Below, piece by piece: positions 15,664 through 23,252 of a DNA stretch of 32,670 nt. The first letter of the stretch is position 1, and every line of letters begins with the position of its first letter. The stretch lies in assembly GCA_031082285.1 (NCBI GenBank), contig JAVHLK010000049.1, positions 3,820 through 36,489 on the forward strand, in the 5' to 3' direction. Made by a program: the position numbers and the translations under genes. The stretch is from Desulfomonilaceae bacterium (GTDB taxonomy: Bacteria > Desulfobacterota > Desulfomonilia > Desulfomonilales > Desulfomonilaceae). The notes under the pieces are model-generated. The model had not been told where the DNA came from, did not search any database, and worked only from the letters and a program-made list of their open reading frames with translations.

Positions 15664-17499
15664 ATGTTGACCGCAACACTCCACAGACTGTGGTTCGGCC
15701 GCCTTCACCTGTCAAGCAGGAAGGCTCTCCCACTCGTCGTTTTTCTCAACATCGCCTTGACCGGAATCGTGTCCGCTGCAGAGCGTCAATATCCGGTTGC
15801 GCTCATGAACTGGATGGTCGAGGGGACTTTCCATGCGCTGATCGTGGACAAGTCTCAGCAACGATTGACGGTATGGGAAATACGGGAAGGCGAGCCGTCG
15901 ATGATCGAATCGTATCGATGTTCGACGGGTGAGAACGAGGGAGATAAGTGGGTAAGGGGGGACATGAGGACGCCCGAGGGCGTGTATTTCTTCTGTTCGG
16001 TGATCGACGGACGCTCGCTCCCGCCTAAGTACGGCTTGTGGGCCTTTACAACGAACTACCCGAACTTCGTGGATCGCCGTCATGGGAAGAGCGGCGACGG
16101 CATATGGCTTCACGGCAGGGACAAGCCCCTCGGTCCCAAGCCCGATTCCAACGGATGCATCGCGCTTGAGAATCAAGATCTCATCAAAGTGTCACGGTTC
16201 ATCAAACTCCAACATACTCCTCTGATTGTCGTGAAGAAACTCAAGTTGGCGCCTCGATCCGCGGTGGTGGAGCAGGAACGAGAACTGCGGGATTTCATAG
16301 AGAATTGGCGTCAATCATGGGAGTCGCAGGATCTTGATTCGTACATGGGGCACTACTCCCTGAACTTTCAGAGTTGCCGGCTGGACTACAAGGCTTGGAA
16401 AGACAAGAAGCGGAAACTGAACGAGCGATACAGGAAGATCCGAGTCAGGCTGAGCAACGTCAACCTTTATCGGCAGAACGGCCTGGTGACTGCAATCTTC
16501 TCGCAAGACTATAACTCGGACAGTTACCGAAGCTCGGGTGTAAAGGTCCTGTACCTCGTGAATGACGGCACGTACCGCATCTATGCGGAGGATTATCACA
16601 GACCGGTGGATGATCCGTTTCCCGTGGGCTCCCTGTTGGCGGGAATCAACCAATTTCCTTCGGATCGTTACCGGCCGAGGCAAGATCTTGGAATTCGGCT
16701 GGTATCGACTGACGAGCCGGAAAACGGTGTTGAAGCGGAGTTGGAGTCCCCTCGGCCGTCGGCCCCCTCGCGCGGGGTGGTTCTGAAAACGATCGCCGCC
16801 GTGGCAGATGTTGCAGCGCCGGCGTTAGAGAGCAACGAGAAGTTCGTACATGAGACCTCCCCGGACAGGCTCATCGTTGCTCGGATAGTGCCCGCATACT
16901 CGCCCTCTCAAGATCTCAACAGTCCCTTCGGCCTTGCAGACAAGCAAGTCAAGGCTCGCGAGCCGCTGGAGTCGGATGTCGGGGATACGGGGGTCGTACC
17001 CGGCCCGGCAGCGGTAGCCGCGGCGGGGAAACCAAGGGAATATGAGGATTCCGGCCGCGCTTCTTCACGGCTTCAAACCCGTTCGGAGAAATTGCCGCGT
17101 GCAGAGACCAGAGACACAAAGGACGACGAGAGCCCTGACGAGACTCACCGTGCGGAAGTACGAGACTCCGTCGCGAAGTTCCTTGCGCAGTGGAAAAGAG
17201 CATGGGAACAAAAGGACCTTGACGGGTACCTTAGTATGTATCATCCCGAATTTGGGGGCGACGCGTTTGATTTCAAGAAACTGGCCCAGACCAGGAAACG
17301 GTACTTCCGGAAGTACGGAATGATCCGAGTAAAAATGGAAAGGCTGCAAATCAGGAAGGTCGAGAAGCAATTGCACGTGAAGTTTCTCCAGATCTTCCGA
17401 GGAGATGAGTACAGTGATAAAGGTTGGAAAAGCATGGTCCTGGTTCGTGGAAAAGATAAGGGGCTCCGAATCCTCTCAGAAGAGTGGTCCGCCTTATAG
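15664..17499 (+). CDS. L,D-carboxypeptidase/transpeptidase, Csd6/Pgp2-like, with two NTF2-like domains
   Basis: 611 aa from ATG 15664; a TTG at 15628 would add 12 residues but lacks a ribosome site. An N-terminal signal sequence or anchor (about residues 20-40, ALPLVVFLNIALTGIVSA) places it in the periplasm. The YkuD catalytic domain (about 50-200) has His150 in WLHGRDKPLG and Cys165 in DSNGCIAL, the catalytic pair of L,D-transpeptidases. Two related domains of about 115 residues follow (about 200-317 and 497-611), both starting F-x3-W-x2-W-E-x-D-L-D-x-Y and reading as NTF2-like folds. They are separated by about 180 disordered residues. YkuD plus NTF2-like is the layout of Helicobacter Csd6 and Campylobacter Pgp2, which trim tetrapeptides to tripeptides; those have one such domain. 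Its 3' end overlaps the next gene. Confidence 0.82.
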   Translation: MLTATLHRLWFGRLHLSSRKALPLVVFLNIALTGIVSAAERQYPVALMNWMVEGTFHALIVDKSQQRLTVWEIREGEPSMIESYRCSTGENEGDKWVRGDMRTPEGVYFFCSVIDGRSLPPKYGLWAFTTNYPNFVDRRHGKSGDGIWLHGRDKPLGPKPDSNGCIALENQDLIKVSRFIKLQHTPLIVVKKLKLAPRSAVVEQERELRDFIENWRQSWESQDLDSYMGHYSLNFQSCRLDYKAWKDKKRKLNERYRKIRVRLSNVNLYRQNGLVTAIFSQDYNSDSYRSSGVKVLYLVNDGTYRIYAEDYHRPVDDPFPVGSLLAGINQFPSDRYRPRQDLGIRLVSTDEPENGVEAELESPRPSAPSRGVVLKTIAAVADVAAPALESNEKFVHETSPDRLIVARIVPAYSPSQDLNSPFGLADKQVKAREPLESDVGDTGVVPGPAAVAAAGKPREYEDSGRASSRLQTRSEKLPRAETRDTKDDESPDETHRAEVRDSVAKFLAQWKRAWEQKDLDGYLSMYHPEFGGDAFDFKKLAQTRKRYFRKYGMIRVKMERLQIRKVEKQLHVKFLQIFRGDEYSDKGWKSMVLVRGKDKGLRILSEEWSAL

Positions 17500-18556
17500 A
17501 CCCCTGCCCGAGATTCCGGAACCCAAACCTCGTAGCAAAGCCCGCTATTCGGTGGTGCTGATAAACGAGGCCGGCAGATCGCGCCAAATCGAGGTCTCAC
17601 CCGTGAGACTGGGGTTGGGCGTTGCAGCCGTCTGTGGAGTCTTTCTTCTGATGATTGTGGCGGCCGGCACGATCGGCGGATTCTTGCGGGGCGGTCCGGA
17701 GTCGACGGGTGACCGGGAAGCTCTGACTGCCAAGTTGGCGGCTCTGGAGGAAGACCTCCGGCAGAAGGAACTGGCACTCGCCGTCCAGGAAAAGCGACTC
17801 AAGGAGATGCAGGAATTGCCGCGAATGGATGCGGCCCTTTCCCGTGAATCGGAAGCGGCGCGAAGCGAGGAGATGAGATCTCCCGGGAGCATTCCTCGTG
17901 AGTCCGATCACGGGCCGCTTACGGCAATGAAGCCTGCTGAGAGAGGAAGTGGGATCGACCGGGACGACTTGCAAGCCGTCTTACCCGGTTCCGAATCTGA
18001 AGATGCGCAGCCCGGAGGAGAGCCGGGATCTCCCGGGTATACGGAACGGGAGATCGCCGAGTCGGCCGGCGATACGCCTTCCGAAGTGAGCCGATCGGAT
18101 CGGACCCGGGAAATAATTGAGTTCAACGCGGAAGAGGTCGTCGCGATCGCTAAGGGTCCAAATAGCGGGAGGCTTCGCTTCAAGCTCGTCAAGAATCGAC
18201 ACGGTACGAGGTTTTCCGGGTACCTTTTTGTGTACGTCGAGATGGAGGATCAGCGGGGAGTCAGCAGACTCTATGCGTATCCCAAAGAGGCTCGCAGAGG
18301 AGAGGAGGATCTGCCGACCGATTTTCGAGAGGGCAAGAGCGTTGCGTTCAATAAGAACTCCCTCGTTGAACTCCCGTACGATGACAACCGCCCGGGGGCG
18401 TCGCTGTCCGGGGTATCGATTCTCATTTACGATCCGGATGGAAAGATTGTCTTTCAACGCCGGTTCGATGACAAGGATCTCAAGGTGGTCGATTCTCGGT
18501 CCCATGATGGGAACGAGGTGACGCCGGTCAGGGGTGATGGGAGACGACCTCTGTGA
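17405..18556 (+). CDS. Membrane-anchored coiled-coil protein with a conserved-looking C-terminal domain
   Basis: 383 aa, not recognised. The cytoplasmic N terminus (about 65 residues, containing ARYSVVLINEAGRSRQIEVS) precedes one membrane helix at about 72-95 (LGLGVAAVCGVFLLMIVAAG). Next are a Glu/Lys coiled coil (about 100-145) and an acidic, Pro/Ser-rich disordered stretch to about 245. A compact beta-rich C-terminal domain (about 250-370) contains GYLFVYVEMED and ISILIYDPDGK-like strands. The N-terminal part resembles the membrane-proximal region of M23 peptidases but no peptidase domain follows. The start overlaps the L,D-peptidase gene by 95 bp, with GAGGAG touching the ATG; GTG codons near 17550 are alternatives. 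Lying between two peptidoglycan carboxypeptidases, it may scaffold them. Confidence 0.75.
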   Translation: MSTVIKVGKAWSWFVEKIRGSESSQKSGPPYRPLPEIPEPKPRSKARYSVVLINEAGRSRQIEVSPVRLGLGVAAVCGVFLLMIVAAGTIGGFLRGGPESTGDREALTAKLAALEEDLRQKELALAVQEKRLKEMQELPRMDAALSRESEAARSEEMRSPGSIPRESDHGPLTAMKPAERGSGIDRDDLQAVLPGSESEDAQPGGEPGSPGYTEREIAESAGDTPSEVSRSDRTREIIEFNAEEVVAIAKGPNSGRLRFKLVKNRHGTRFSGYLFVYVEMEDQRGVSRLYAYPKEARRGEEDLPTDFREGKSVAFNKNSLVELPYDDNRPGASLSGVSILIYDPDGKIVFQRRFDDKDLKVVDSRSHDGNEVTPVRGDGRRPL

Positions 18557-18627
18557 GACCTTCATCGGTTTGAGGCTCCCGCGGTATCCACAGCGAAGGC
18601 CGAATGGGCCTGGAAACATGAAATCCA

Positions 18628-20619
18628 TTGACGCAAACGAAAAGATCGGCGTTATGTCCAATGCCCGTGGTTATGGGATTTGACCTTGAGGGGCACCCGG
18701 TAGGCAGTCGGGTTGCCGGGGATGCGGAAACAGCCGATCGCGTCTCGGTCCGACCCGATCCATGGGACCGACGGACAAGCCGGACGCTCTGGGCCTTGAG
18801 GCGCGGGTGGTGGAGAACCGCGTTCCTGGTTGTCCTCCTTGCTCTGCCATTCTCCGCATGGGCGGAAACCCACCGCACGGTCCATTTCAGAGGCACGGAT
18901 GCGGAACTCGACGTCATCACCATAAAGGGACTCCATTCCGGACCGACTCTTCTCATTCTCGGCGGCATACAAGGCGATGAACCCGGAGGGTACCTTGCAG
19001 CGGATCTGTACGCGGATTTGACGCTCAAGAAGGGAAATCTCATCGTCGTGCCGAGAGCGAATTTCCTGTCCATAGTTGAGAACAGCAGGGGAGTCGAGGG
19101 GGACATGAACCGCAAATTCGCGGGAAGGACCAAACCCTCGGACCGGGATGCGGCAATTGTTTCAATCTTAAAGAGTCTTATGAAGCAGAGCGACTTCTTT
19201 CTCAATCTCCATGACGGGTCCGGATTCTACGCCTCCCGGTGGGAGTCTCCAGATCGAAATCCCATGCGATATGGGCAATCCATCATCATCGACGCGGACC
19301 GGTTCATCGGCCCGGACGGAAAAGTAATTGAGATGGGAAACATGGTTCGCCGGGTACTGGAAACGGTCAATCCCCAGATTCCCGATCCCGACCACCATTT
19401 TCACCTCAATAATCATCGCACACTTCAAGAAGACACCAAGCACCGTGAACAGAGGCTGTCGGCAACGTTCCACGCGGTGACCAGAGTGGGCATTCCCGCG
19501 TTCGGCATTGAGACGTCAAAGAATCTTTCCGACTACCGTCTGAGGGTCAGATACCAGACCATGGTCGTGAATGCCTTTCTGGAAGAGGTCGGCATCGTTC
19601 CGGACAATCCCAGGATGTACCTGGAGAATCCTCAACTGAAATACGTAATTCTGTCCGTTAACGGGAATACTCCGATTGTGGTGACCGGGAGGGACAGGGT
19701 CGAGGTTCAGAAGGGAGATACGATCAAAATCGTCCACATCGAGTCGAACTACTCGCGGGGCCTTACCGCGCGTCTCCGTAGGGTCCCTCGCAGACTCAAC
19801 GATATGGGCAAAGAGATTATCGTACGCGCGAATTCAATCATTGAGGTCCGGAAAGACCGTTTCCTCATGGCCGAAATACCGGTGGACGTGATCGAGGGAC
19901 GCTCACAGGCCCGGACCGGACTGCATTTCGAGCCGCGCGTTCGATTCTTCTCCATTCGGGTCAATGACCGAACGATGCTCATTGAGCCGGGCGAGGAACT
20001 GAGAGTAATGAGAGGAGACACCCTCACGATTCTCGATCCCCTTACCAACATGGCCGAGGAAGACGAGAAGTCGGTCAGAGTTGATTTGAGGGGCTTTCAG
20101 GCGTCTTCGTCTCCCTATCCGGTGGAGGATCGCGGCCACCACATCAATACGGCCGGCGATCTCCAAGAAAAGTATGCCGCCAAACGAGGAACCCTGTCCG
20201 TCTTTTCACTGCAGGCCAAGCTCGGTAACCGCGCATTCGACGAGTGCTTTATCGCGGTGGAAGAACCGCGTATGCACTACGTCGTGTTGAGTGATGCTCA
20301 GTCGAGGAGCTTTATCGTCCATCCGGACGATCGAGTTGAACTGCCGGCACACGCGGTGGTGAAAATCATGGACATCAGGACCAACATTGAGATGCCGGGG
20401 GCGCTGTTCATTACCATGTCCGGAAAGACGTTGAGGTGGAGTGAGGCCGGATCTGCAGGGATTGACGCGTCCAAGCTTTCGCCGAGTGACACCGCTCTGG
20501 ACATAACCCGCGGAGGCAGGAGTCTCGGAAGAATATGGCTGAAGCGAGGAAAGGAACTGAGGCTCACCTCCGACCGTAACAGGATTCACGCCCCACTCCT
20601 GCCCGTCGGCTATCAGTAG
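18628..20619 (+). CDS. D,L-carboxypeptidase of the M99 (Csd4/Pgp1-like) family
   Basis: 663 aa as read from TTG 18628; the true start is uncertain (ATG 18661, ATG 18673 or TTG 18796 are in frame). A signal peptide RRGWWRTAFLVVLLALPFSAWA indicates export. The M14-like catalytic domain has GGIQGDEPGG (Gln115, Glu118), GDMNRKF and NLHDGSGF (His195), then FGIETSK (Glu295). Gln replaces the usual first His zinc ligand, exactly the noncanonical feature of Helicobacter Csd4 (Gln46, Glu49, His128), with similar spacing. Csd4 cleaves the mDAP-D-iso-Glu bond of peptidoglycan tripeptides. The C-terminal half holds three tandem beta repeats (from about 335, 434 and 545). It is third in a cassette with a Csd6-like enzyme, whose tripeptide product would be its substrate. 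Confidence 0.85.
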   Translation: MTQTKRSALCPMPVVMGFDLEGHPVGSRVAGDAETADRVSVRPDPWDRRTSRTLWALRRGWWRTAFLVVLLALPFSAWAETHRTVHFRGTDAELDVITIKGLHSGPTLLILGGIQGDEPGGYLAADLYADLTLKKGNLIVVPRANFLSIVENSRGVEGDMNRKFAGRTKPSDRDAAIVSILKSLMKQSDFFLNLHDGSGFYASRWESPDRNPMRYGQSIIIDADRFIGPDGKVIEMGNMVRRVLETVNPQIPDPDHHFHLNNHRTLQEDTKHREQRLSATFHAVTRVGIPAFGIETSKNLSDYRLRVRYQTMVVNAFLEEVGIVPDNPRMYLENPQLKYVILSVNGNTPIVVTGRDRVEVQKGDTIKIVHIESNYSRGLTARLRRVPRRLNDMGKEIIVRANSIIEVRKDRFLMAEIPVDVIEGRSQARTGLHFEPRVRFFSIRVNDRTMLIEPGEELRVMRGDTLTILDPLTNMAEEDEKSVRVDLRGFQASSSPYPVEDRGHHINTAGDLQEKYAAKRGTLSVFSLQAKLGNRAFDECFIAVEEPRMHYVVLSDAQSRSFIVHPDDRVELPAHAVVKIMDIRTNIEMPGALFITMSGKTLRWSEAGSAGIDASKLSPSDTALDITRGGRSLGRIWLKRGKELRLTSDRNRIHAPLLPVGYQ

Positions 20620-20622
20620 CAC

Positions 20623-20714
20623 CGGTACGTTTTCGGTACCACCGGCATCTCCGTCGGTACGTTTTCGGTACCACCAGCATCTCCGCCGGTACGTTTTCGG
20701 TACCACCGGCGTCC
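20623..20714. repeat. Three tandem 32-bp repeats
   Basis: Units start at 20623, 20655 and 20687; the third is shortened. Each begins CGGTACGTTTTCGGTACC followed by ACCRGCATCTCCG and contains the inverted pair GGTAC/GTACC. Differences are limited to a few bases. There are no spacers, so this is not a CRISPR array. It fills the gap between the convergent Csd4-like and panD genes. Confidence 0.85.
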
Positions 20715-20726
20715 TGCCCCGAAGAT

Positions 20727-22515: not shown

Positions 22516-22974
22516 TCACGATGGCTGCGTGATGTCCAGCCACAAGGCCGCTGGGACGAAGCGCGACAAATGGCCAACATTCGTAGTAGCGATGACAACG
22601 TTCGCGACGTCGAGCGTCCTAGCTTGCGCTGCAAGAATCACATCTCCATCAAGAGCCTTGTCATCCGCTGTTGGCTCACCCTGCTGACGAGCCTGCGCCC
22701 AAAGGGCAGCTGCCATCCGCATTGCGGCCGTTGTGAGGGGGAGATACTCCAAGTGACCAACGAGATCATCGAGGCGCCTCAACCCTTTTACCTTGTTGGC
22801 TCGCAGTAGTTCACGGCGCACTTCGTAATCCGAGATTTCGGGTACGATGGTGCGGGCACCGTGGGTCACCAGAGCTTGCAGCCATTTCGCACATGCGACA
22901 CTTGCCGGTGAACGCCTCGGATTGGTCACGAGACCGAGTGGTCCCGCATCGAGCATTACGATGAGGCTCACCAC
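22516..22974 (-). CDS. PIN-domain toxin, VapC-type
   Basis: 152 aa from GTG 22974. PIN-domain proteins are Mg2+-dependent ribonucleases; as VapC toxins they cleave tRNA or rRNA when not bound by antitoxin. Acidic positions fit the fold: Asp9 in VMLDAGPLG, Glu46 in IVPEISDYEVRREL, Asp109/Asp111 in ALDGDVILAAQA. The fourth position is Asn132 in ATTNVGHLSRF, as in many active members. The start overlaps the antitoxin stop by seven bases (GTGGTGA), typical of a two-gene toxin-antitoxin operon. It is bordered by inverted repeats, suggesting the module was gained. Confidence 0.88.
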   Translation of the reverse strand: MVSLIVMLDAGPLGLVTNPRRSPASVACAKWLQALVTHGARTIVPEISDYEVRRELLRANKVKGLRRLDDLVGHLEYLPLTTAAMRMAAALWAQARQQGEPTADDKALDGDVILAAQARTLDVANVVIATTNVGHLSRFVPAALWLDITQPS

Positions 22975-23252
22975 GTCACACCCTGCAGCTCTGGGGTGAA
23001 GAGCCGGCGATTCGATAACCGGTGGTCGTCAAGTGCCTGAATGAGATACTCCCCAGTATCCTGCTGGTCTTGAGAGTCTGTTTCATCAAGCCACGACTGT
23101 AACAAATTTACCACTTCGGTGGTTCTATGCTTTGGCGGCACACACTGCTCCAGAACTCGTACAGTATACGCGTCAACAGGAACGCCGTGGCGCGTGGCCT
23201 CCTCAGTCAGACGTTTCTCAAGGTCCGGTGGCAAGTGAAGCGTGAGTGTCAC
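22968..23252 (-). CDS. VapB-like antitoxin
   Basis: 94 aa from GTG 23252, which follows GGAGA by about six bases. It opens MTLTLHLPPDLEKRLTEEA, a ribbon-helix-helix style DNA-binding N terminus (a strand, then two helices to about residue 40). A C-terminal tail (about 50-94) probably wraps the PIN toxin. RHH antitoxins repress their own operon by binding a palindrome at the promoter; candidates such as TTCCT/AGGAA lie just upstream but no operator is certain. It is translationally coupled to the toxin gene. Confidence 0.83.
   Translation of the reverse strand: MTLTLHLPPDLEKRLTEEATRHGVPVDAYTVRVLEQCVPPKHRTTEVVNLLQSWLDETDSQDQQDTGEYLIQALDDHRLSNRRLFTPELQGVTW

Follow-up and report, generated by a model that had tools for sequence, protein, structure and literature searches.

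A three-gene cassette in a 32,670-nucleotide stretch of DNA from a Desulfomonilaceae bacterium (GenBank assembly GCA_031082285.1, contig JAVHLK010000049.1; this whole stretch is called the window below) is likely, with a rough probability of 0.6, to encode a peptidoglycan-trimming pair together with a membrane adaptor, here named X, which would position the pair via bactofilin. The trimming-pair part of this reading is well supported by homology. X itself, judged from its gene contexts and its predicted structure, is probably an adaptor between bactofilin and enzyme, as opposed to a scaffold reserved for this pair. All three open reading frames (ORFs) were confirmed on the plus strand where the original prediction had placed them (15,664-20,619), with the refinement that gene 3 likely starts, with a signal peptide, at TTG 18796 within a frame that is open from TTG 18628. 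Each of the three genes is single-copy in the 5.6-Mb genome. Since the closest named loci are from Desulfomonile metagenome-assembled genomes (MAGs), with an identity of the M99 proteins of about 57-64%, the window stems from a Desulfomonile relative. The cassette comprises the following features.

15664..17499, plus strand: gene 1, predicted Csd6/Pgp2/Bd1075-like LD-carboxypeptidase of 611 amino acids, YkuD plus two NTF2-like domains
15835..16230, plus strand: YkuD catalytic domain (residues 58-189), His150 at 16111-16113 and Cys165 at 16156-16158
16285..16590, plus strand: first NTF2-like (Cds6_C) domain
17170..17484, plus strand: second NTF2-like (Cds6_C) domain
17405..17499, plus strand: overlap of genes 1 and 2, 95 bp in different frames
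17405..18556, plus strand: gene 2 (X), predicted bitopic membrane protein of 383 amino acids, no Pfam or NCBIfam family
17546..17596, plus strand: predicted cytoplasmic beta-hairpin of X, residues 48-64 (strands 48-53 and 59-64), resembling the N-terminus of LmdC-like M23 proteins
17600..17689, plus strand: transmembrane helix of X, residues 66-95 (AlphaFold2)
17699..17872, plus strand: coiled coil of X, residues 99-156 (AlphaFold2), followed by a disordered linker
18122..18493, plus strand: C-terminal immunoglobulin (Ig)-like beta-sandwich of X, residues 240-363, the portion found fused to Csd6-like proteins in three other loci
18796..20619, plus strand: gene 3, Peptidase_M99, predicted Csd4/Pgp1-like DL-carboxypeptidase
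18865..19596, plus strand: M99 catalytic domain with Gln58, Glu61 (motif from 18961), His138 and Glu238, numbered from codon 18799
19597..20601, plus strand: C-terminal beta domains of M99; their first part matches domains 2-3 of Csd4, and an additional beta domain follows residue 488

The assignment of gene 1 as Csd6-like, made in the original prediction, held up in searches with hidden Markov models. Its product matches PF24125 (Cds6_C) in two copies (E=1.4e-34; 119 bits against a cut-off of 27) and PF03734 (YkuD; E=2e-16). Among solved structures the closest relative is Bd1075 of Bdellovibrio (PDB 7O21; E=1e-50), followed by Csd6 of Helicobacter (5e-27) and Pgp2 of Campylobacter (8e-24), and His150 and Cys165 align with the His/Cys pair of all three. 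Both residues are kept in 77 of 77 aligned homologues. Common to gene 1 and these three enzymes is a YkuD domain with the His/Cys pair and an NTF2-like domain behind it. Whereas Csd6, Pgp2 and Bd1075 have one NTF2 domain each, gene 1 has two, as do 70 of 78 relatives, with a long linker between them in the window protein, and unlike the three it is encoded beside X and an M99 gene. The NTF2 domain targets Bd1075 to the convex cell face (PMC8938487), and that of Pgp2 binds peptidoglycan (PMC8038945). As a side observation, three loci (L153, L154 and L156) encode very long proteins of about 800-940 amino acids with a Cds6_C-type region, and the M99 gene of those genomes lies elsewhere.

YkuD domains are mostly those of LD-transpeptidases, and in NCBIfam gene 1 matches LdtF/DpaA weakly, below the threshold. 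On these grounds the protein might instead form 3-3 cross-links or attach proteins, and the cassette would then serve envelope attachment and not trimming. We regard this as quite improbable because every one of the closest relatives of known structure is an LD-carboxypeptidase and shares the NTF2 layout, and because the neighbouring gene encodes a predicted M99 DL-carboxypeptidase, an enzyme which needs tripeptides.

Gene 3 matches PF17033 (Peptidase_M99) with E=2e-39 and 136 bits against a cut-off of 27. Csd4 is matched with E=4e-31, and the Gln/Glu/His/Glu residues, taken for Csd4 from PMC4220969, are aligned, so the Gln-Glu-His zinc site proposed earlier is present. Across 38 M99 homologues there is no variation at Glu61, His138 and Glu238 and hardly any at Gln58. 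The structural model agrees with Csd4 over three domains (residues 36-488 against 19-438 of Csd4; VIA Z=32.7, 369 residues aligned, root-mean-square deviation (rmsd) 7.6), the next unrelated row having Z=20.6. Gene 3 thus shares with Csd4/Pgp1 of Helicobacter and Campylobacter the QxxE...H metal site, the catalytic Glu and the three-domain fold; it differs in its extra C-terminal beta domain.

With regard to its identification as Csd4/Pgp1, family and fold were corroborated, but the protein falls outside the clade of the phylum's canonical Csd4/Pgp1-type proteins. Among 395 Desulfobacterota genomes, M99 proteins were divided by score into a high-scoring, canonical class (>200 bits) and a cassette class (90-200 bits). 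A Cds6_C gene is located within 6 kb upstream of at least 48 of 54 loci of the cassette class, whereas none of the 17 high-scoring genes among the matches listed is clustered in this way. In a tree built without Helicobacter and Campylobacter sequences, the canonical M99 proteins form a clade (100/100) apart from a 32-row cassette clade (90/86) which holds the window protein, with a few rows elsewhere. Two genomes (G243 and G324) carry both kinds. Based on this separation we name gene 3 Csd4-like and not an orthologue of Csd4, and many M99 proteins of Desulfobacterota are probably not Csd4/Pgp1 orthologues.

The arrangement is conserved. Eighty named loci were found with the M99 alignment, 63 of them with enough upstream sequence. 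A csd6-like gene lies upstream of the M99 gene in 56 of these 63 and X, separate or fused, in 55; both precede M99 in 50, including three Csd6-X fusions. The neighbourhood survey thereby bore out the notion of a conserved cassette with a membrane-bound coiled-coil protein between the two enzymes. The overlap of the first two genes was likewise correctly described; it recurs in relatives, where its commonest length is 34 bp. Most cassette loci belong to Desulfobacterota, and some are in MAGs filed as Nitrospirota, Myxococcota, Latescibacterota, Gemmatimonadota and Fidelibacterota.

The contiguity of the two enzyme genes is not new but has been known since 2014: Frirdich et al. report pgp1 and pgp2 homologues as neighbours (≤300 bp) in four organisms, Nitratiruptor, Nautilia, a Desulfococcus and Persephonella (PMC3961634). 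In the passages of that paper drawn on here, X, bactofilin and two M99 classes are not mentioned, unlike in the cassette described here. Literature searches found no paper joining Csd6, Csd4 and Desulfovibrio, and none joining bactofilin and Desulfobacterota.

No family in Pfam or NCBIfam matches X above its cut-off. The AlphaFold2 model of X has a mean predicted local distance difference test score of 77, with values >90 across most of the transmembrane, coiled-coil and C-terminal blocks. A sequence search of solved structures with the X alignment returned coiled-coil and transmembrane noise only. The 5' end of X is overprinted on the 3' end of gene 1, and its Desulfomonile relatives encode an extra N-terminal segment (TVxKVGKAWSWL..) in this overlap. 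In L064, L067 and L075 the X sandwich, without hairpin and transmembrane helix, is fused to the C-terminus of a Csd6-like protein behind a single Cds6_C domain. X therefore seems to be tied to the Csd6-like enzyme in particular.

Searches with the C-terminal domain of X located the protein in 65 of the 395 genomes. A Cds6_C gene is present in 49 and an M99 gene in 39 of these; ten genomes have X and Cds6_C without M99, and Csd6-X pairs lacking an adjacent M99 gene are found in L149, L178 and L179. These distributions bear on the proposal that X serves as a scaffold for the two enzymes exclusively and that the proximity of bactofilin genes reflects incidental clustering of wall genes. Such a role would agree with the csd6-X-M99 order in most M99 loci and with the three fusions, but it is unlikely given that 16 of the 65 X genomes lack a Cds6_C gene, that X is paired with bactofilin alone in L164-L170, and that in two genomes of the family to which the window belongs (G004 and G011; L160 and L161) X stands without either enzyme beside the same lyase gene as in the window. 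In L160, panD and panC also flank the lone X as they do in the window. The dedicated scaffold of the original prediction is hence not upheld; because X is also found beside only bactofilin, beside only Csd6, or on its own at the site syntenic with that of the window, we favour an adaptor. In a further three loci (L162, L163 and L177) X is found without adjacent enzymes beside or near an adenylosuccinate-lyase-like gene, which suggests that this is an old syntenic position of X.

The partner that the original prediction missed is bactofilin, whose gene directly adjoins the cassette in roughly half of the relatives. It is beside the cassette in 46 of 75 testable loci. In 40 of them it is the next gene after M99, and all but one of these 40 either overlap or have it within 230 bp; in the other six it lies upstream. 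Sampled bactofilins were confirmed by PF04519. In L164-L170, which represent one family without Cds6_C, X is immediately beside the bactofilin gene. At genome level, bactofilin occurs in 63 of the 65 genomes with X and in 182 of 330 without it (Fisher p=1e-12, uncorrected for genome relatedness). The gene order M23, bactofilin, X is found in L173 (G172; Csd6 is encoded elsewhere in the genome), and a search seeded from this locus revealed an M23 peptidase gene together with bactofilin in the cassette clusters of L051/L065, L074, L102 and L128; a scan for M23 by regular expression gave noise only.

These M23 peptidases are relevant to the N-terminus of X. LmdC is an M23 peptidase encoded beside bactofilin; it is bitopic, with a cytoplasmic hairpin, a transmembrane helix and a coiled coil, and its hairpin binds the bactofilin BacA (PMC10945521). 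When the hairpin and transmembrane region of X was compared by hhalign with six M23 N-termini from the loci above, the two aligned in register with a probability of 78%, against 0.3-0.9% for the reversed alignment and two family decoys and 17.8% for the best of 104 single decoys. X thus resembles the LmdC-bactofilin module of Hyphomonas and Rhodospirillum (PMC10945521) in its predicted hairpin, transmembrane helix and coiled coil and, in relatives, in its bactofilin gene neighbour. It differs in that an Ig-like domain without a Pfam match takes the place of the M23 peptidase domain, the enzymes of the cassette being separate or fused Csd6-like and M99 proteins. The conserved gene set also points to the LmdC hairpin as a portable module for docking to bactofilin. 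The likeness to LmdC speaks, too, to the alternative that X only anchors the Csd6-like enzyme to membrane or peptidoglycan via its Ig-like domain, the hairpin being a topology signal with no connection to the cytoskeleton. Csd6-X pairs without an adjacent M99 gene, and fusions which retain the Ig-like domain and lose hairpin and helix, are compatible with mere anchoring. We nonetheless consider it doubtful, as the hairpin resembles LmdC-like N-termini above decoys and a bactofilin gene is adjacent in 46 of the 75 testable loci.

By role, X may be likened to Csd5 and Csd7 of Helicobacter (PMC9507126). These two transmembrane proteins, which are not enzymes, bind CcmA, a bactofilin, and link it to wall enzymes or wall, much as we propose for X. 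No sequence relation to X emerged, and Csd5 ends in an SH3 domain where X has an Ig-like sandwich. No SH3 domain is among the listed structure matches of the X C-terminal domain, all of which are Ig-like or other sandwiches, and X as a Csd5 homologue was rejected for want of both sequence and SH3 evidence.

Several observations weigh against a bactofilin adaptor. The hairpin similarity covers a short stretch of about 40 residues, and half of this stretch is transmembrane. Single M23 sequences reach 8.6-56.6% against the hairpin and transmembrane region of X in hhalign, so that some overlap with the best decoys, and a HMMER profile of the X N-terminus gives only weak M23 matches, which fall for the most part on the transmembrane segment (best E 6e-4, from a small set). 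The X sandwich matches generic Ig-like domains only, the best being a GH2 enzyme (Z 8.8, rmsd 2.4 over 93 residues). No bactofilin gene is beside the cassette in 29 of the 75 testable relatives, and two X genomes, both <80% complete, show none. Nor does one adjoin the cassette of the window: the only bactofilin gene of this genome is on another contig (L140, 8069-8584; G000:C239). There it comes after genes read by eye as mreC, mreD, PBP2 and rodA and before others read as those of ATP synthase.

We infer both enzyme activities, the binding of X to bactofilin and to the Csd6-like enzyme, and an effect on cell shape, and the adaptor model built on them would operate as follows. Bactofilin filaments would gather X through its cytoplasmic hairpin. 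X would span the inner membrane, its coiled coil and Ig-like domain reaching into the periplasm, where the latter would dock the Csd6-like enzyme. Guided by its NTF2 domains, the gene 1 product would cut tetrapeptide stems to tripeptides, which the gene 3 product would then cut to dipeptides. Trimming would follow the bactofilin pattern, change the wall locally and in this way influence cell shape. Given that a bactofilin gene is beside the cassette in many relatives, X probably tells wall enzymes where to cut. In the window organism the partner would be the single bactofilin of the mre/rod operon, and if the model holds there, X would link trimming to the rod complex's own bactofilin.

The surroundings of the cassette were also inspected. 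An adenylosuccinate-lyase-type gene is located upstream, and panD and panC downstream on the opposite strand (all by Pfam); further ORFs upstream were read by eye as Qmo subunits. Just 3' of the M99 gene and before the convergent panD, a 32-bp repeat (CGGTACGTTTTCGGTACCACC...) occurs three times in tandem (20623-20718). Two small minus-strand ORFs at 22516-23252 have the appearance of a putative PIN-domain toxin and its antitoxin. A promoter and terminator scan yielded nothing above chance.

New in this study are the predicted architecture of X and its likeness to LmdC, the bactofilin gene beside the cassette, the occurrence of X without the enzyme pair, and the separate M99 clade; the bactofilin link is the new part that is also the most testable. 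A helical cell shape is not implied, because the cells of Desulfomonile are rods that do not move and whose wall is invaginated in a collar-like manner (PMC7773648), and a machine specific to helical cells was rejected as unproven. We put at a little short of even the odds that X represents a new family of bitopic adaptors for bactofilin, with an LmdC-type hairpin and, in place of a peptidase, an Ig-like docking domain, through which bactofilin would place a pair of LD- and DL-carboxypeptidases. Such a module might build the Desulfomonile wall collar, a role that is speculation. What directs Csd6/Pgp2 and Csd4/Pgp1 to their sites on the wall is unclear in Helicobacter and Campylobacter, and for the placement of Bd1075 we know of no determinant other than its NTF2 domain. 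The cassette bears on this question: as a conserved set of both enzymes, a hairpin-transmembrane-coiled-coil protein and bactofilin, it is a concrete candidate for a link from the cytoskeleton to peptide trimming.

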